NCBI RefSeq assembly: GCF_003860125.1
Contig: NZ_RQYL01000011.1
Span: 1 to 64,000 of the forward strand
Reading direction: 5' to 3'
DNA from: Fretibacterium sp. OH1220_COT-178
Lineage (GTDB): Bacteria > Synergistota > Synergistia > Synergistales > Aminobacteriaceae
DNA: 64,000 nucleotides
A program made the position numbers and the translations under genes. Within the stretch, counting starts at the first letter, position 1. The number at the start of each line of letters is the position of its first letter. The notes under the pieces were generated by a model. That model did no database searches, had not been told where the DNA came from, and saw only the letters and a program-made list of their open reading frames with translations. Below, piece after piece: positions 46,878 through 63,394 of this stretch.

Positions 46878-47420
46878 ATGGCAGGACAAAAGCAGGAGCA
46901 TACGACCCATCTGCTGGGTGCCGCGGTCGTCGGCAAGACGCATCCGCGCATCGAGCTGCGCGGTCGGCTCGACAGCCTGAATGCTGCGATCATCCGTGTA
47001 CAGGTGCTGGCCCGCGAGGCGGGGTGCGCCCAGCTGGAAGGGGACCTCGAGGAGCTCCGGGAAAAGGTGGGGGAACTTCTGGCCTGCGAGGTGCGGGACA
47101 TCCCCTGTTCCGAGCTCTCGTTGTGGGGGCTGACGGACGAGGAGATCCACGAGCGGTCGCACTTTCCGGAGCGTTCCTATGGACTGGGGCACATTCTCCC
47201 TCACCCGGACATGGGCCGATGGGCCGCGGAGCTCAACGTGCTGCGTACGCTGGTTCGGGAGGTGGAGCTCTGCGCCTGCCGGGCCTTCGAAACGGATGAG
47301 GGGATGGAGCGCCCGGATATCGTCAAAGTGCTGAACCGTCTCAGCAGCGCCCTCTACATCCTGACCTACCGGTACCTGCCCGAGGGGTACGATCGAACGA
47401 TCCATTTTGCAAGGAAATAA
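46878..47420 (+). CDS. EutT-like ATP:cob(I)alamin adenosyltransferase
   Basis: The protein has 180 aa and is all-helical. HPRIELRGRLDSLNAAIIR, ELNVLRTLVREVELCACRAF and DIVKVLNRLSSALYILTYR match the helical core of PduO/EutT-type adenosyltransferases, closest to EutT by eye. The Cys motif HX11CCX2C known from Salmonella EutT is not seen. It would convert cobalamin to adenosylcobalamin, the cofactor of mutases such as methylmalonyl-CoA mutase. No ethanolamine genes are present. It closes the plus-strand run started at 35740. Confidence 0.7.
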   Translation: MAGQKQEHTTHLLGAAVVGKTHPRIELRGRLDSLNAAIIRVQVLAREAGCAQLEGDLEELREKVGELLACEVRDIPCSELSLWGLTDEEIHERSHFPERSYGLGHILPHPDMGRWAAELNVLRTLVREVELCACRAFETDEGMERPDIVKVLNRLSSALYILTYRYLPEGYDRTIHFARK

Positions 47421-52034: not shown

Positions 52035-52062
52035 TTGACATTCCCGGTTTTTGCCGTATAGT
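52035..52062 (+). promoter_or_regulatory. consensus promoter of the riboswitch-controlled gene
   Basis: TTGACA (52035-52040) and TATAGT (52057-52062) with 16 bp between them. Transcription should start near 52069, just before the cobalamin riboswitch. It separates this unit from adhE, whose stop is 112 bp upstream. Confidence 0.8.
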
Positions 52063-52081
52063 TTTCGTGTAGACAAAACAG

Positions 52082-52230
52082 CCTCGGAAGGTGTTCGGGA
52101 AGTCCGGTGAGAGACCGGCGCGGACCCGCCACTGTAAGCTCGGAAATACCGGCCGCACCCACTGGGGGCGTCGTCCTCCCGGGAAGGGGGCCGGAAAAAG
52201 GAGCGAGCCAGGAGACCGGCCTTCCGGAGG
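52082..52230 (+). promoter_or_regulatory. cobalamin (B12) riboswitch
   Basis: The core matches the consensus: GGGAA-GTCCGGTGAGAG-CCGGCGCGGACCCGCCACTGTAAG (52098-52138), the later GGGAAGG block (52190-52197), and the B12 box GAGCCAGGAGACCGGCC (about 52205-52221). Terminal arms CCTCGGAAG (52082-52090) and CTTCCGGAGG (52221-52230) form P1. It would bind adenosylcobalamin or a relative and reduce expression of the downstream gene. Confidence 0.93.
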
Positions 52231-52326
52231 AGCACACGCCCCCCGCGTGGATTCGGGCCGGTATGTGGAGTGCGTCTTTCGGCAACCCGTCGTGCGGGGG
52301 CCGAAGGCCGTGTCCTCCGTCATTCG

Positions 52327-52373
52327 GGGCCGTCCTCTCGCGAGGGCGGCCCTTCGCGGTTCTCCGGGACCGC
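52327..52373 (+). promoter_or_regulatory. hairpins between riboswitch and acyl-CoA synthetase start
   Basis: GGGCCGTCCTC (52327-52337) pairs with GAGGGCGGCCC (52342-52352) around a TCGC loop. A second GCGGT/ACCGC hairpin (about 52356-52373) follows. Neither is followed by a T-run. They probably belong to the expression platform and act on translation or on Rho access. The RBS GGGAGGA is at 52388-52394. Confidence 0.45.
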
Positions 52374-52402
52374 AGTCGAATGGAACGGGAGGATTCACGA
52401 AC

Positions 52403-54523
52403 ATGACCGAGTCGAATGCAGCCTTGCTGTCCCACCCTCTGAGAAAGCTCTTCGCCCCTCAAAGCGTCGCCATCGTCGGCGCCTCGTCCGACCCGGAACG
52501 CCTGACGGGACGGACGCTCCGCTATTTGCAGGCCTTCGGCTACCGGGGAGCGATACACCCGGTCAACCCGAAGGCCGACGCCGTCGCAGGCCTGCCCGTG
52601 CACCGGGACATCGCGGAGATCGAAGGTCCCCTGGATCTCGCGATCCTCAGCGTCAGGGCCAACCTGATCCCCGGCGTGATGCGGGCCTGTGCCGACAAGC
52701 AGGTTCCCTTCGTCCTGATCTACTCCTCGGGTTTTTCCGAGACGGGCAACAATGCGCTTCAGGAGGAGGTGTCCGCCATCGCACGCGAGGGGGGCATCCG
52801 GGTCCTGGGGCCGAACTGCCAGGGACTGGTGAACCTGGCGGAGGGGATTCCCCTCACGTTTTCGGGCGCCCTCTACGAGGCGCCGCGCCCGGTAACGGGA
52901 CACGTTGCGCTCGTGTCCCAGAGCGGAGCGTTCGGGTTCTCGTCCTTCGGCGTGGGGATGGAGCACGGCGTGCGGTTCCGCTACGTCGTCACCACCGGCA
53001 ACCAGTCGGACCTCGATGCCGTGGAGTGTGCGGACTACGTGCTGGAGGACCCCGAGGTGCGCCTGCTGATGCTCTATCTGGAAGGGCTGGAGGACGGGGC
53101 GGGCTTCCTGCGCCTGGTGCGGAGGGCCCGCGAACGCGGCATCGCCGTTGCGGTCCTGAAGGCTGGACGGTCGCCCTCGGCCCGGGAGGCGGCCAAGAGC
53201 CATACGGCGGCACTGACGGGGGACGAGCGGGTCTGGTCGGCGGTGTTCTCGCAGTACGGGGTCATCCCGATGGAGGATATCGACGACATCATCGGCATCG
53301 GCCAGGTGCTGGGGGCGGAGAAACGCATGAAGGGCGGCAGCTCCGCGATCCTGACCACCTCCGGAGGGGCCGGCATCGTCATGGCCGATTGCCTGAACGA
53401 CGTGGGGCTCTCCGTCCCGGAGTTCTCGCCTCTGACGAGGACGCGCATCGAGGCGGCCATTCCGCCCTTCGGGGCGTCCCGCAACCCCGTGGACATGACG
53501 GTCCAGATCTCCGAGCAGCCGGAGAACTTCCGCAGCGTCTTCGACGCGGTGCAGGAGGACGCGGAGCTGGACTCGGTCGTGACGTCCCTGTCGATGATCG
53601 TGGGGCGCGCGGGCGACGTCATGACGGACATCATGATCGAGAGCTACGGCCGCAGCCCGAAGCCCCAGGCGGCCGTCTGGATGATCGACCATCAACATGG
53701 AGGCCGCTTCATCGAACGGCTGAAGGGGGCCGGGATCCCCATCTTTCAGAGCTTCCGTCAGTGCGCCCGCGCCATGAAGGCCCTCAAGCGGTGGGGGACC
53801 TTCGAGCCTCCTCTGGCGCCCCGTTTCGACGCGAGCGAGCCGATCCTTCCGGACTGGGAGGAGAGCATGACCGAGTACGACGCCAAGGTGTTCCTCTCCC
53901 GGTACGGCATTCCCGTGACGCGCGAGCGCCTTTGCCTGAACCTGGAGGAGGCGTGCGACGCGGCCGAGGAGCTGGGTTTCCCCGTGGCGCTCAAGGGGAT
54001 GGCGGCCTCCGTGCTGCACAAGACGGAGGCGGGGATCGTGGCACTGGACGTGCGGTCCTTCGAGGAGCTCCGAAGCGCGCTCAAGACCGTGCGGAGTCAT
54101 TTGGCGGAGCATGTCGGGGACCGGGGAGTCCAGGGTTTTCTGGTCTCCGAGATGGTGCGGGGAGGGTTCGAGTGCATCGTCGGCGTGAAGCGGGATCCCG
54201 TGTTCGGGCCGATGATCGCGGTGGGCCTCGGCGGAATCTACGTCGAGGTGCTGGGCGACGTGTCCCTGAGGCACGGGGCCGTCGACGAGGACGAGGCGCT
54301 CGACATGATCCGCCAGATCAAGGGCTACTCGTTCCTCTCCGGGACCCGGGGCAGCCGGCCGAGGGATATCCGGGCCCTGGCCCGGATCGTCAGCCGGGTC
54401 TCGCAGCTGGCGGTCACCGAGACGGGGCTGCTGGAGCTGGACATCAATCCCGTGTTCGTCCTGGAGGAGGGCAAGGGGGCCGTGGCGGCGGACGCGCTGG
54501 TCGTGAAGGCGCAGGAGGCATGA
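52403..54523 (+). CDS. ADP-forming acetyl/acyl-CoA synthetase (fused alpha-beta)
   Basis: The protein has 706 aa. The N-terminal CoA-binding domain (about residues 14-140, SVAIVGASSDPERLTGRTLRY) is followed by succinyl-CoA-ligase-like domains with the phospho-histidine in AKSHTAALTG (about His267). The C-terminal ATP-grasp domain (about residues 485-706) has ALKGMAASVLHKTEAGIVALD and ELDINPVFVL. It converts acyl-CoA, ADP and phosphate to the acid, CoA and ATP, an energy-yielding step in peptide fermenters. The substrate is unknown; acetyl-, propionyl- or branched acyl-CoA are all possible. The ATG at 52403 has GGGAGGA 8 bp upstream. It is under a cobalamin riboswitch, which is unusual for this enzyme. 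Confidence 0.9.
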   Translation: MTESNAALLSHPLRKLFAPQSVAIVGASSDPERLTGRTLRYLQAFGYRGAIHPVNPKADAVAGLPVHRDIAEIEGPLDLAILSVRANLIPGVMRACADKQVPFVLIYSSGFSETGNNALQEEVSAIAREGGIRVLGPNCQGLVNLAEGIPLTFSGALYEAPRPVTGHVALVSQSGAFGFSSFGVGMEHGVRFRYVVTTGNQSDLDAVECADYVLEDPEVRLLMLYLEGLEDGAGFLRLVRRARERGIAVAVLKAGRSPSAREAAKSHTAALTGDERVWSAVFSQYGVIPMEDIDDIIGIGQVLGAEKRMKGGSSAILTTSGGAGIVMADCLNDVGLSVPEFSPLTRTRIEAAIPPFGASRNPVDMTVQISEQPENFRSVFDAVQEDAELDSVVTSLSMIVGRAGDVMTDIMIESYGRSPKPQAAVWMIDHQHGGRFIERLKGAGIPIFQSFRQCARAMKALKRWGTFEPPLAPRFDASEPILPDWEESMTEYDAKVFLSRYGIPVTRERLCLNLEEACDAAEELGFPVALKGMAASVLHKTEAGIVALDVRSFEELRSALKTVRSHLAEHVGDRGVQGFLVSEMVRGGFECIVGVKRDPVFGPMIAVGLGGIYVEVLGDVSLRHGAVDEDEALDMIRQIKGYSFLSGTRGSRPRDIRALARIVSRVSQLAVTETGLLELDINPVFVLEEGKGAVAADALVVKAQEA

Positions 54524-54531
54524 GGCACGAA

Positions 54532-54560
54532 GGGCCCCCGGAGAGGTTCTCCGGGGGCCC
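54532..54560. terminator. bidirectional terminator between acyl-CoA synthetase and hcp
   Basis: A perfect 13-bp stem (54532-54544 GGGCCCCCGGAGA with 54548-54560 TCTCCGGGGGCCC) with a 3-base loop lies between two convergent genes. T-runs are short on both sides, but the stem is very stable. Confidence 0.7.
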
Positions 54561-54575
54561 CGGTTTGCAGCGCGG

Positions 54576-56219
54576 TTATCCCAGAATGGCCTTGAGGTCG
54601 GCCTCGGGGGTCGTGATGGGCTGGATGTTGAAGGCCTTCTGCAGGAACTCCAGCACGGGCGGCTTGACGAATGCAGGCAGCGAGGGCCCGAGCCGGATGT
54701 TTTTGATTCCCAGAAAGAGCAGGGAGAGCAGGATGCAGACGGCCTTCTGCTCGTACCAGGAGAGCACCAGAGACAGGGGCAGGCCGTTGACGTCGGTGCC
54801 GAAGGCCTCGGCCAGCGCCGCGGCGATCTTGATGGCCGACGCGGCGTCGTTGCACTGCCCGACGTCCAGCAGGCGGGGCAGCCCGTCGATGTCCCCGAAG
54901 TCCAGCTTGTTGAAGCGGAACTTTCCGCACGCCAGGGTCAGGATCACGGTGTCCCGGGGCGCCTGTGTGGCGAAGTCCGTGTAGTAGTTGCGACCGCTCT
55001 TGGCGCCGTCGCAGCCGCCGACCAGGAAAAAGTGCCGGATCTTTCCGGCCTTGACCAGCTCGACGACCTTGCCCGCGGCGTTCAGCACGGTGTTGTGGCC
55101 GAAGCCCACGAGGATCCGCTTGTCGTCGCCGTCGGCCTCGAAGCCCGGCGCGGCCAGGGCGGCCTCGATGACCGGCGTGAAGTCCTTCTTGTCGTCGATG
55201 TGGCGCACTCCGGGGAAGGCCACCAGCCCCGTGGTGAAGATGCGGTCCGTATAGCTGGTGGGCTTCTGGATGCAGTTGGTGGTCATCAGGATGGCGCCGG
55301 GGAAGGCCGCGAACTCCTTCTGCTGGTCCTGCCAGGCTCCGCCGTAGTTGCCCGCCAGGTGCGGATACTTCTTGAGCCGCGGGTATCCGTGGCAGGGCAG
55401 CATCTCGCCGTGGGTGTAGATGTTGATGCCCTTGCCCTCCGTCTGCTGGAGCAGCAGATCCAGGTCGCGCAGATCGTGGCCGGAGACCAGGATGGCCTTG
55501 CCCTTCAGCGGGTGGATGCGGACCGGCGTCGGCTCGGGGTGTCCGTACACCTCGGTGTTGGCCCTGTCCAGAAGGTTCATGACGTCTATGTTCCACTTGC
55601 CCGCGTCCAGAACGTGTGCCGTCAGCTCCTCCACGGTCATCGCCTCGCGGCTCAGGGCGTCGAGCTTTTCGTGGAAGAACCCGTAGATGCCCTCGTCCTC
55701 GTAGCCCAGCACGAGGGCGTGGTGGGCGTACGCCGCGCTGCCCTTCAGGCCGAGCAAAACCAGATCGTAGAGCCCCTGAACGACATCCCCCCGTCTCTCC
55801 GCCCAGCTCAGGGGGGTGTAGCGCCCGCCCGCGACGACCATGTCGGCCATGCTTTCCGGCAGCTCGTCCACCGCAGGGCCGGAGAGAACCTCGGGCTTCG
55901 TGCCCACCCGCGCGCAGGCCTCCTCGTAGAGCCGTTTCGCGCTCCTGCGCGCGGAACTGGCCCGGGCGATCATCTCGGCCATGCGGAGGTTGTCGAAGTT
56001 GACGTTCGTGACGGTCGTGAAGAGCGCCTCGACCACGAACCGATCGATCTCCCGGTCGACCGATCCGAGCCCGCGCGCACGGTGCGCGTACATCGCAATT
56101 CCCTTTGCGGCGTGGACCAGGAGATCCTGAAGGTCCGAGACCTCCGCGGACTTCCCGCACACTCCGACGACATTGCATCCCGTCCCCCTCGCGGTCTGCT
56201 CGCACTGATAACAGAACAT
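54576..56219 (-). CDS. hcp: hybrid cluster protein (hydroxylamine reductase)
   Basis: The protein has 547 aa. The N-terminal cluster motif is Cys3-x2-Cys6-x8-Cys15-x5-Cys21, the class I pattern of strict anaerobes. Hybrid-cluster ligands follow in the C-terminal half (ACGKFRFN, GQCNDAASAI, EQKAVCILLSLLFLG). Hcp reduces hydroxylamine and nitric oxide and helps against nitrosative stress. The ATG at 56219 (MFCYQCEQTARGTGC) is chosen because GAGGGGGA lies 6 bp upstream and all relatives start so. Its promoter carries a palindrome (see 56247-56298). No hcr reductase gene is adjacent. Confidence 0.95.
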   Translation of the reverse strand: MFCYQCEQTARGTGCNVVGVCGKSAEVSDLQDLLVHAAKGIAMYAHRARGLGSVDREIDRFVVEALFTTVTNVNFDNLRMAEMIARASSARRSAKRLYEEACARVGTKPEVLSGPAVDELPESMADMVVAGGRYTPLSWAERRGDVVQGLYDLVLLGLKGSAAYAHHALVLGYEDEGIYGFFHEKLDALSREAMTVEELTAHVLDAGKWNIDVMNLLDRANTEVYGHPEPTPVRIHPLKGKAILVSGHDLRDLDLLLQQTEGKGINIYTHGEMLPCHGYPRLKKYPHLAGNYGGAWQDQQKEFAAFPGAILMTTNCIQKPTSYTDRIFTTGLVAFPGVRHIDDKKDFTPVIEAALAAPGFEADGDDKRILVGFGHNTVLNAAGKVVELVKAGKIRHFFLVGGCDGAKSGRNYYTDFATQAPRDTVILTLACGKFRFNKLDFGDIDGLPRLLDVGQCNDAASAIKIAAALAEAFGTDVNGLPLSLVLSWYEQKAVCILLSLLFLGIKNIRLGPSLPAFVKPPVLEFLQKAFNIQPITTPEADLKAILG

Positions 56220-56246
56220 GCACATTCCCCCTCGATATGGTATTAA

Positions 56247-59587: not shown

Positions 59588-60628
59588 ATGGACGGCGGAC
59601 GGCTTTCCGAGATCCGGCCCGGCGACGACCGGGCCCGTGCGGAGTGGGAGGCGCTACTGGAACGGGAGGGAATCCGACGCGACCGTCACCTCGACTACAC
59701 CGTGGGGCTGTACGACGAGGAGGACCGGCTGGTCGCGACCGGCTCGTGCTTCGCCGATACGTTGCGCTGCCTGGCGGTGGACGGCGCCCGACGGGGCGAG
59801 GGGCTGTTGGGCCGGATCGTGTCGCACCTCGTCGAGCTGCTGATGGAACAGGACCGACCGAGGCTCTTCCTCCACACTCGGTCCGACCGTACGCCCTTCC
59901 TTTCCGGACTGGGGTTTTACGAGGTGGTCCGACGGGACGGAATCTCGCTCATGGAGAACCGCAGGGACGGCTTCGAAAAATTTCTCCGGGACCTCTCGGG
60001 TTCCGCGCGGCCGGGCCGGAGCGCGGCCCTGGTGATGAACGCCAATCCCTTCACGCTGGGGCACCGTTTCCTGGTCGAGCGCGCAGCCGCGGAGAACGAT
60101 TCGGTGCATCTCTTCGTGGTCTCGGACGACGTTTCCCTCGTCCCTTTCGAGGACCGCTTCGCGTTGGTCAAGGCGGGTTGCGACGGCCTCGGCAACGTGG
60201 CTTTGCACCGCACGGAGGGGTACATGATCTCACAGGCCGTGTTCCCCTCCTATTTTCTGGAGGACGAGGATGCGGCCGTCACGGCACAGGCTCGGTTGGA
60301 CGCGGCTTTGTTCGAAAGGATCGCCTCCGTGCTGGGGGTGACGCGCCGCTATGTGGGGGAGGAGCCCTTCAGCCGCGTGACCCGGCTTTACAACGAGGTC
60401 ATGGCGCTGGGACTGCCGAATGCGGGCATCGAGCTCGTCGTCGTGCCCCGCCTGGAACGGGATGGGCGTGCCGTCAGCGCCTCGGAGGTGCGGCGCCGGA
60501 TCAAGGAGGGGGACGTCGAGGCCGTTCGGCCCCTCGTCCCCCCCGCCACCTACGACTACTTCTTCACCGAAAGGGGAAGGGAGGCCGTCCGCAGGATACG
60601 GTCGGCCTCAGAGGTCGTGCATCATTAG
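59588..60628 (+). CDS. citC: [citrate (pro-3S)-lyase] ligase
   Basis: The protein has 346 aa. An N-terminal GNAT-like domain (about residues 1-130, with RRGEGLLGRIVSHLVELLM) is followed by a nucleotidyltransferase domain. VMNANPFTLGHRFLVERAA contains its HxGH-type site (here NPFTLGH). It acetylates the prosthetic group of citrate lyase with ATP and acetate, switching the enzyme on. The ATG at 59588 follows GGGGGGAGAATC. It is convergent with citF, and their stop codons overlap by two bases, so no terminator lies between them. Confidence 0.9.
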   Translation: MDGGRLSEIRPGDDRARAEWEALLEREGIRRDRHLDYTVGLYDEEDRLVATGSCFADTLRCLAVDGARRGEGLLGRIVSHLVELLMEQDRPRLFLHTRSDRTPFLSGLGFYEVVRRDGISLMENRRDGFEKFLRDLSGSARPGRSAALVMNANPFTLGHRFLVERAAAENDSVHLFVVSDDVSLVPFEDRFALVKAGCDGLGNVALHRTEGYMISQAVFPSYFLEDEDAAVTAQARLDAALFERIASVLGVTRRYVGEEPFSRVTRLYNEVMALGLPNAGIELVVVPRLERDGRAVSASEVRRRIKEGDVEAVRPLVPPATYDYFFTERGREAVRRIRSASEVVHH

Positions 60629-62193
60629 TTCGAACCGCCAGGCTGTTGCAGCGGCTTGATCTGCCGCACCACGTCCAGCAGCGTCCCGTCGCGCGCCTCC
60701 ATGATCGCCACGACGCGGTCCTCGAACTCCAGCGGGTCGGGCGTGCCGACGATGGCGTAGGCCCGGTCCTTCAGCGCCCCGATCGTCGTCGTGGGGATCC
60801 GGGCGGCCTCGAGGGCGGCGGAGATATCCTGCCGCGCGGGGTTGACCGCGATGCCGTAGTCGGTGACCAGGACGTCCACGGATTCGCCCGGGGTGGTGAC
60901 GGTGACGACCCGTTCGCAGACCGTGGGCATGCGCCCGCGGACCAGCGGCGTCACGATGATCGTGCACTTCGCGCCTGCGGCGGCGTCCGGGTGTCCGCCC
61001 GGCGCGCCGCGCAGGATACCGTCGGAGCCGGTCACCACATTGACGTTGAAGTCCGTGTCGATCTCCAGCGCCGCCAGAATGACGAAGTCCAGCTTGTTGA
61101 CGAAGGCCCCCTTGTTCATGGGGTTGGCGTACTGCGAGGTCGAGATCTCGAAATGCCGGGGGTGCTCGTGCACCGAGTTCACCGCCGCGATGTCGAAATC
61201 CTGCGCGTCGACGACGGTGTGGATCAGGCCCTTGTTCAGCAGGTCCACGGTGGGACGGGAGATGCCGCCGATGGCCCAGCGCATCGTGATGCCCCGCTCG
61301 ACCATCAGGGGCTCCAGAAAGCGGTTGACCGCCAGGGAGGGGCCTCCGGCTCCCGTCTGGAAGGAATATCCGTCCCGGAACCAGGGAGTGGCGGCCATGA
61401 CGCGCGCACAGGCCTCGGCCATCATCAGATCGCGCGGGTCCTGGGTCATCCGCAGCGCCTGAGAGGCGATTTTCGCGGGGTCCCCGATCGCATCCACGAC
61501 GACCACGCAGTCCACATCAACGGCCTCGATGCTCGGAGGAAAGTTGGGAAAGGGCACCAGGGCGTCGGTGATGACCACGACCTTGTCCGCGTAGCGCGCG
61601 TCCGCCATGGCGTAGGACAGCACGCCGCAGTCCGATTTGCCTCCCTTGCCACGTGCGTTGCCGTACTCGTCGCAGCTCGGGGCTCCGATGAAGGCGACAT
61701 CGATGTGCAGCTCCCCCTCCTCGATGGCCCGGACGCGCCCGCCGTGGGAACGCAGGATCGCTGGGGTCCGGAGCTTCCCGGCGGAGACGGCCTCGCCCAT
61801 CCTTCCACGGATCCCGCTGGTCTGAAGCCCGGTGACGACGCCGTCCTCGATCATTTGGGCGATGGGGTCGTGGGCCGAACCCAGCGAGGAGGCCGCGATG
61901 GTGATGCCGCGGATGCCCAGGGCCTCGATCTCCTTCATCACGCTGTTGACGATGTAGTCGCCGTCGCGGAAATGGTGGTGGAAGGATACGGTCATGCCGT
62001 CCCTCAGTCCGCAGCGGACGATGGCCTCCCGGATGCTCTCGACGACCTTGCTCTCCTGCGGTCGGACGTGGGCCCGGACCCTGGGGCCGGGCCTGACGTA
62101 CTCCCTGCCGTCCCGATGGTTGTTGCCCCTGAAGACCTCTCGGCCGTTCGCCAGCAGTTCGTCGGGAATGTCCCTTCCGATGGCGTTGATCAT
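60625..62193 (-). CDS. citF: citrate lyase alpha subunit (citrate CoA-transferase)
   Basis: The protein has 522 aa, normal for CitF. It matches the family along its length: MINAIGRDIPDELL at the start, SFHHHFRDGDYIVN, GAPSCDEYGNARGKGGKS, and SDGILRGAPGGHPDAAAGAK. It exchanges acetyl for citryl on the acyl-carrier subunit. The ATG overlaps the citE stop (ATGA), and the stop overlaps that of citC on the opposite strand. The order citD-citE-citF is standard. Confidence 0.95.
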   Translation of the reverse strand: MINAIGRDIPDELLANGREVFRGNNHRDGREYVRPGPRVRAHVRPQESKVVESIREAIVRCGLRDGMTVSFHHHFRDGDYIVNSVMKEIEALGIRGITIAASSLGSAHDPIAQMIEDGVVTGLQTSGIRGRMGEAVSAGKLRTPAILRSHGGRVRAIEEGELHIDVAFIGAPSCDEYGNARGKGGKSDCGVLSYAMADARYADKVVVITDALVPFPNFPPSIEAVDVDCVVVVDAIGDPAKIASQALRMTQDPRDLMMAEACARVMAATPWFRDGYSFQTGAGGPSLAVNRFLEPLMVERGITMRWAIGGISRPTVDLLNKGLIHTVVDAQDFDIAAVNSVHEHPRHFEISTSQYANPMNKGAFVNKLDFVILAALEIDTDFNVNVVTGSDGILRGAPGGHPDAAAGAKCTIIVTPLVRGRMPTVCERVVTVTTPGESVDVLVTDYGIAVNPARQDISAALEAARIPTTTIGALKDRAYAIVGTPDPLEFEDRVVAIMEARDGTLLDVVRQIKPLQQPGGSN

Positions 62194-63095
62194 GGCTGCA
62201 ATTCCCCCTCGTAGAGGCCCGATGCCCGAGCCAGGGCCAGGGTCCGCTCCGCCCCGGGCAGGAAGGCGATGTCCAGCATCTTGCCGTCGAGCGTGAAGAC
62301 GCCCACGCCCTTGTCCGCGTTCTCCCGGATGGCACGCACGATGCGCTCCGCCTGGCGGATCTCCTTCTCGGTGGGCGCGAAAATTTCGTGCACCACCCGG
62401 ATCTGCCTGGGGCTGATGATGGACTTCCCGTCGAAGCCCATCTCCTTGTTCTGGAGGACCTCCGCGCGGAAGCCCTCCATGTCGTCGAGGTCGGTGAAGA
62501 CGGTATCGAAGCACTGGACGCCCGCCGCCCGGGCGGCCAGCAGGATATGGCCTCGCGCGGCCAGCATCTCGATGCCGCCGGGACGGTAGGCGGTCTGCAT
62601 GCACTTGCGGAAGTCCCCGCCGGAGATGGCGATCCCGAACAGACGCTCCGAGGCCGTGCAGATCTCCAGGGCGTTCAGCACGCCCCGCGGGCTCTCGAGC
62701 GCGCCCATCAAAAGGGTCTCGCCCGGGGTACGCCCGAACTCCCGTTCCGCCTCCTCCACGGCGGCCTCCACCGTCCTGACGTCCTGCGCGCACTCGCACT
62801 TGGCGATGCGGATGGCGTCCGCCCCGCCGGCCACACAGACCCGGACGTCCTCGCGCCAGTGCGGCGTGTCCAGGCCGTTGATGCGGACGACGCGCTCGAC
62901 GGCTCCGTAGTCCACCGCCCGGAGCGTGTGGTACAGGGAGAACCGCGCGGAGTCCTTCTGATTCTCGGCGACGGCGTCCTCGAGGTCGAACATCACGGAG
63001 TCGGGACGATAGATGTAGGCGTCCTTCATCAGGCTGGGGCGCTGTGCGCTGAGGAACATCATGGTGCGCCGCAGCCGGTTCTTTTTGGCGTTCAT
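62190..63095 (-). CDS. citE: citrate lyase beta subunit
   Basis: The protein has 301 aa. Motifs: MMFLSAQRPSLMKDA, MFDLEDAVAENQKDSAR and LLMGALESPRGVLNA, with the metal-binding Glu/Asp of the citrate-lyase beta fold. It splits citryl-ACP to oxaloacetate and acetyl-ACP. The ATG at 63095 (MNAKKNRLRR) overlaps the citD stop by 4 bp and follows GGGGAGGTG. Confidence 0.95.
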   Translation of the reverse strand: MNAKKNRLRRTMMFLSAQRPSLMKDAYIYRPDSVMFDLEDAVAENQKDSARFSLYHTLRAVDYGAVERVVRINGLDTPHWREDVRVCVAGGADAIRIAKCECAQDVRTVEAAVEEAEREFGRTPGETLLMGALESPRGVLNALEICTASERLFGIAISGGDFRKCMQTAYRPGGIEMLAARGHILLAARAAGVQCFDTVFTDLDDMEGFRAEVLQNKEMGFDGKSIISPRQIRVVHEIFAPTEKEIRQAERIVRAIRENADKGVGVFTLDGKMLDIAFLPGAERTLALARASGLYEGELQP

Positions 63096-63394
63096 TCCCG
63101 AACCGCACCTCCCCAGGGTATGCCCTCGGTCCGCCCGGAGGAGCGAAAGACGGCGCACTCCACACGGGCCCGGATCGTGCAGTCCAGCGCCCCCTTGTCG
63201 ACAAGGGTGACCCTGGCCGAACGGACCTCCAGACGCTCCAGGGTCTCCGCCACGACGTTTCTGATCTGCCTGCCGTACTGCCTCATCACGCTGCTGCTGA
63301 TATCGATCGAAATGCCCTCCCGCTCCGGCTCGACCGTGACCTGAACGTCGCTCGACTCGAGCGACCCGGCGACGGCCGGTCTGAGGATTTCCAT
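63092..63394 (-). CDS. citD: citrate lyase acyl carrier protein (gamma subunit)
   Basis: The protein has 100 aa. The N-terminus MEILRPAVAGSLESSD has Ser14, the site that carries the phosphoribosyl-dephospho-CoA prosthetic group. VVAETLERLEVRSARVTLVDKGALDCTIRARVE is the conserved core (positions 48-80). It is the first of citD-citE-citF. It starts 25 bp after the stop of the glycosyltransferase on the same strand, so it may be read through from that gene. The citX/citG genes that make and load the prosthetic group are not in the window. Confidence 0.93.
   Translation of the reverse strand: MEILRPAVAGSLESSDVQVTVEPEREGISIDISSSVMRQYGRQIRNVVAETLERLEVRSARVTLVDKGALDCTIRARVECAVFRSSGRTEGIPWGGAVRE

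Follow-up and report, generated by a model that had tools for sequence, protein, structure and literature searches.

The window, a 64-kb stretch (64,000 nucleotides) of the genome of Fretibacterium sp. OH1220_COT-178, carries a cobalamin riboswitch just upstream of a gene for an ADP-forming acyl-CoA synthetase (ACS). The same arrangement is found in each of the searched Synergistales genomes that encodes a close relative of this enzyme, and the topology of the leader predicts repression by B12. The reading that we favor, with somewhat better than even confidence, is that of a B12-repressed single-gene unit whose product would serve as a B12-independent, ATP-yielding outlet for acyl-CoA, preferably at the metabolic branch of the methylmalonyl-CoA mutase MutAB.

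The Riboswitch-ACS Unit

The features of the unit are listed in Table 1. The riboswitch (RF00174) is the sole Rfam match in the window at the gathering threshold. It scores 85 bits, where the gathering score is 31.5, and so bears out the original prediction of a clear B12 riboswitch. The match spans model positions 1 to 189, i.e., the full-length aptamer, with an intact B12 box (AGCCAGGAGACCGGCC); the L5-L13 pairing, judged by eye, is only partial. The promoter, at first described as perfect, is present but near-perfect; shuffling gives an expectation of 0.2 for this many consensus matches. Comparable promoters occupy the same position in the leaders of a Fretibacterium relative and of SYN01. 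The ACS start was placed at ATG 52403, which has a Shine-Dalgarno site, and not at GTG 52091, which lies inside the aptamer. The gene after ACS is convergent, so the riboswitch-ACS unit consists of one gene. The proposed grouping of promoter, riboswitch, and ACS into one unit holds, as it is monocistronic in the window and conserved in other Synergistota.

Table 1. Features of the riboswitch-ACS locus (window coordinates)
Feature	Position	Strand	Evidence
Sigma-70-type promoter, TTGACA-16-TATAGT	52035..52062	+	11/12 consensus matches
Cobalamin riboswitch aptamer, RF00174	52072..52238	+	Covariance model, 85 bits, E = 1.6e-19
P13-like hairpin CCCG-CGTGGATT-CGGG, start of the expression platform	52242..52257	+	Motif conserved in 8 ACS leaders
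Anti-Shine-Dalgarno TCCTCCGT, can pair with the Shine-Dalgarno region	52313..52320	+	Predicted folding
Terminator hairpin GGGCCGTCCTCTCGCGAGGGCGGCCC, degenerate U-run TTCGCGGTTC	52327..52352	+	Paired in 8/8 leaders
Shine-Dalgarno GGGAGGA, 9 nt 5' of ATG 52403	52387..52393	+	Sequence
Fused ADP-forming ACS, 706 aa, P0001	52403..54523	+	Domain matches, structure homologues
GC-rich hairpin after the ACS stop codon, likely transcript end	54532..54561	+	Sequence
Hybrid cluster protein, convergent to ACS	54576-56225	minus	Pfam Prismane

The 164 nt between the aptamer and the ATG contain no conserved small open reading frame (ORF); both the frames and the spacer length differ from those in the Fretibacterium relative. 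A hidden B12-related gene between the riboswitch and ACS, which the original prediction had named as a refuting condition, is absent from the window; an ORF in this position is present in one related genus only. There, an ORF of 162 to 164 aa ends right at the ACS start (L017:995-1489, L018:1013-1501). It has no match in Pfam or NCBIfam and no relative outside its genus in 61 genomes.

The protein behind the riboswitch is, as anticipated, an ACS with the full domain set expected of the ADP-forming family (CoA_binding_2, Succ_CoA_lig, Ligase_CoA_2, and ATP-grasp_5), and it is the only such ACS in the genome. It shows whole-chain similarity to the 4-hydroxybutyryl-CoA synthetase Nmar_0206 (8WZU; E = 2e-104) and to a DMSP lyase (7CM9; E = 1e-75). 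In the alignment with 8WZU, the phosphohistidine positions H267 (SHT) and H539 (HKT) are intact; the catalytic histidines of Nmar_0206 are H256 and H535 (PMC11494057). Both proteins share the two catalytic histidines with the window ACS but are its distant relatives, and control by a B12 riboswitch sets the window enzyme apart from them. All substrate-specific NCBIfam models (the acetate, 4-hydroxybutyrate, and 3-hydroxypropionate equivalogs) score 339 to 403 bits on this protein, far below their cut-offs of 567 to 1300. A structure prediction from four rows had a mean pLDDT of 46 and was set aside.

Conservation of the Unit in Synergistota

A total of 183 Synergistales genomes were searched for ACSs at least 60% identical to that of the window. 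Such enzymes are encoded in eight genomes: the window genome, the Fretibacterium relative, three members of one genus, a member of another family (G038), and G070 and G071, in which the matches are the same as in the named records SYN01 and LM3. Among named relatives, Fretibacterium fastidiosum is the closest; its ACS is 87% identical. An RF00174 match lies just upstream of ACS in all eight, which settles in the affirmative whether the arrangement recurs elsewhere in the phylum. At Synergistota loci with ACSs 47 to 54% identical to that of the window, a riboswitch was found in none of the 27 scanned, and the contrast of 8/8 with 0/27 excludes chance co-location. In the three genomes that belong to one genus, the ACS unit has one of only two cobalamin riboswitches found.

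In the ACS tree, the seven riboswitch-borne sequences tested group into a single clade (100/100) with a long stem. The ACSs of about 50% identity from other Synergistota belong to the same family, are of full length, and have intact histidine motifs, but they lack the riboswitch, fall outside this clade, and differ from the riboswitch-borne set at 10 positions that are fixed differently between the two sets. In the four such loci read, the gene lies beside plsY or rplS. Judged by their sequences, the riboswitch-borne ACSs are a distinct B12-associated lineage and not the result of a stray riboswitch. In genome G005, the ACS match (about 1956138-1958224, C1) is split after residue 470, by either a frameshift or a sequencing error.

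Expression Platform and Predicted Polarity

The aligned ACS leaders share a common order of elements: P13 (CCCGCGNGGAYTCGGG, with small variations), a variable spacer, a hairpin, a U-run, and the Shine-Dalgarno site. Pairing of the shared terminator hairpin (GGCCGTCC...GGACGGCC) holds in all 64 cells and includes one compensatory pair, compared to 36 to 61% of cells in slid registers; the shuffle control is weak (64/500) because the pairs rarely vary. The U-run is degraded in the window (TTCGCGGTTC) and in the Fretibacterium relative (TTTGCGGCCC) and good in other genera.

Folding of the leaders up to the terminator loop pairs P13 with the 5' arm of the terminator in 8/8 cases, and in the window leader the 5' arm and loop of P13 double as the antiterminator strand. 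The expected number of pairs in this antiterminator is 14.6 for both the window and the Fretibacterium relative, versus 6 to 8 in shuffles. The P values of 0.045 to 0.14 per leader are individually weak and come from related sequences, in which the antiterminator pairs hardly vary and their columns shift between leaders. The nrdD and cbiM leaders and one btuB leader are predicted to have the same topology. Tens of bases separate P13 from the terminator in each of the eight ACS leaders, with no overlap, so that P13 locked by the ligand would still permit termination, as in an OFF switch. When P13 is locked in the AMI33, SYN01, and LM3 leaders, the probability of the terminator rises from 0.55-0.80 to 0.97-1.00. 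In the remaining ACS leaders, including that of the window, the terminator is already dominant at equilibrium, and locking P13 in the window leader causes no equilibrium switching (0.97 to 0.99). The anti-Shine-Dalgarno helix is strongly predicted in the window leader and unsupported in the ensemble of the Fretibacterium relative. Since the U-run of the window is poor, control there may be partly translational, via this helix.

This topology predicts the following mode of repression. Bound adenosylcobalamin (AdoCbl) would lock P13 through the L5-L13 kissing interaction and keep it from pairing with the 5' arm of the terminator; the terminator hairpin would then form, and ACS would not be made. 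With no AdoCbl, P13 would pair with the 5' arm as an antiterminator, allowing ACS to be made. In the window genome, repression might be achieved partly by hiding the Shine-Dalgarno site. The predicted platform is similar to the OFF platforms of RF00174 in btu, cbi/cob, nrd, and metE leaders in its full aptamer, adjoining P13, separate terminator, and alternative antiterminator, but differs from them in controlling an ADP-forming ACS.

Other Cobalamin Riboswitches

The window genome (2.86 Mb, 105 contigs, 99.96% complete) contains seven RF00174 matches. Their targets, named by eye and in part backed by family checks, are nrdD-nrdG; eutB-eutC and further eut genes; mutA-mutB-meaB; cbiK/cob; btuFCD; a DUF4198 gene with cobalt uptake genes; and ACS. 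Because the B12-dependent ribonucleotide reductase NrdJ is also present, the switch on nrdD has the appearance of classical isozyme control, represented elsewhere by metE with metH (PMC9600662). The ACS unit resembles such control in being a predicted B12-repressible gene amid B12-dependent metabolism. However, no known B12 enzyme has ACS as its isozyme; at most, ACS could offer the substrate of such an enzyme a different fate.

Two of the seven riboswitches precede B12-dependent enzymes, which is why the polarity of the ACS switch was not taken for granted but examined as described above. An ON-like layout, with P13 overlapping the 5' arm of the terminator, is found upstream of genes for two B12-dependent pathways, in the eutB (ethanolamine ammonia-lyase) leader of the window genome (G000:C46) and upstream of the ornithine fermentation operon of the Fretibacterium relative (G006:C1:400001-409000). 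The two-subunit mutAB-meaB genes are preceded by a cobalamin riboswitch in three genomes (the window genome, G000:C32, as well as G016 and G049). In G048 (C1:22001-30000) and G049 (C1:916001-922000), genes for aconitase, isocitrate dehydrogenase, and citrate lyase also lie behind cobalamin riboswitches, with two arranged in tandem in G049. The G048 leader is predicted to be an OFF switch: locking P13 raises the terminator probability from 0.19 to 0.98, and its antiterminator duplex has a P value of 0.004. These loci suggest that the steering of fermentation by B12 extends further within the phylum.

Two further targets were named by eye. The one in G038 (L100:1193-1516) is a 107-aa membrane protein behind a cobalamin riboswitch, similar in appearance to a PQ-loop transporter, and in the Fretibacterium relative (G006:C1:2037001-2045000) a weak match (43 bits) precedes an oligopeptide/nickel-type ABC transporter.

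Proposed Metabolic Role of the ACS

According to the favored reading, ACS would turn acyl-CoA into the free acid with a gain of ATP when B12 is scarce, draining acyl-CoA that is otherwise consumed by the B12-dependent methylmalonyl-CoA mutase. Its favored site would be the succinyl-CoA/methylmalonyl-CoA/propionyl-CoA branch served by mutAB, with succinyl-CoA or propionyl-CoA as the best guesses for the substrate. This branch is a natural candidate because mutAB is present and linked to a riboswitch, and a search of the window genome for a SucC-type succinyl-CoA synthetase gave none above the cut-off. By family assignment, the ACS reaction is not the same chemistry as those of methylmalonyl-CoA mutase, NrdJ, or EutBC, with which ACS could share only a substrate. 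SucC is present in two riboswitch-bearing genomes (G005 and G033), which argues against a universal succinyl-CoA role. Acetate kinase, found in 14 of the 14 genomes examined, rules out ACS as the only acetate-forming enzyme and as the sole means of gaining ATP from acyl-CoA. The suggestion that ACS replaces or competes with a B12-dependent route thus fares unevenly: the predicted OFF polarity fits it, whereas its placement around propionyl-CoA or methylmalonyl-CoA is a guess from context; methylmalonyl-CoA mutase and acetate kinase occur together in every genome tested. The adenosyltransferase mentioned alongside it is real (PF01923 at 46878-47420, E = 3e-19; it most resembles EutT, without reaching the NCBIfam cut-off for that family). 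Neither this gene nor the mmd genes of the window have an operon or riboswitch link to ACS. Citrate lyase genes citF-citE-citD, identified by eye, lie at 60625-63394 on the minus strand of the window, with no riboswitch.

In amino-acid fermenters, ADP-forming ACSs use many different acyl-CoAs as substrates. This is in line with a less probable alternative, in which B12 represses ACS and the enzyme works elsewhere, either on acetyl-CoA or branched acyl-CoA from amino-acid oxidation or in reverse, activating external propionate or branched acids when the B12-dependent routes to their CoA esters fail. The 10 fixed differences from the ACSs without a riboswitch would point to another substrate, and the coexistence of methylmalonyl-CoA mutase, acetate kinase, and sometimes SucC is also consistent with this view. 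However, the substrates it invokes are conjectural, and control by B12 would make sense only if some other B12-dependent step were involved.

The opposite polarity appears unlikely. As an ON switch, the riboswitch would co-induce ACS with mutAB, and ACS would catalyze the last, ATP-yielding step of a B12-dependent route from succinate to propionate. The riboswitches upstream of the B12-dependent mutAB-meaB and eutBC in the same genome are compatible with such a scheme, as are the ON-like eutB and ornithine leaders, but in 8/8 ACS leaders P13 stays clear of the terminator and forms the antiterminator instead. It is more improbable still that the aptamer in the window genome is a relic, kept by descent on a platform that no longer switches. 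The degraded U-run and the lack of a predicted equilibrium effect of locking P13 might be taken as signs of decay, but the window shares a conserved aptamer core, P13, and terminator hairpin with other genera and families, and the anti-Shine-Dalgarno helix could stand in for the terminator.

Implications

Published targets of cobalamin riboswitches comprise B12 biosynthesis, transport of B12 or its precursors, cobalt transport, and isozymes of B12-dependent enzymes (PMC3766115). By name, ACS belongs to none of these four classes and is thus an added target outside them. A cobalamin riboswitch on an ADP-forming ACS was not found in the literature searched, which covers few subscription papers, and an earlier mention is possible. 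Neither the riboswitch class nor the enzyme family is new, but their combination appears to be.

A broader scheme can be put forward tentatively, with less confidence than the favored reading of the ACS unit itself: in a branch of Synergistota, B12 might shut off a dedicated succinyl-CoA or propionyl-CoA synthetase, as well as the aconitase-isocitrate dehydrogenase-citrate lyase operon of Thermanaerovibrio-like genomes, and so favor flow through the B12-dependent methylmalonyl-CoA mutase. If true, this would be a case of a cofactor riboswitch choosing between fermentation pathways and not between isozymes, and steering the energy-conserving end of amino-acid fermentation. The ACS subfamily gains a testable role, for which the three-genome genus with two cobalamin riboswitches is a simple test system. 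For anaerobes living among B12 producers, the finding suggests that the supply of the vitamin may switch fermentation from one route to another.
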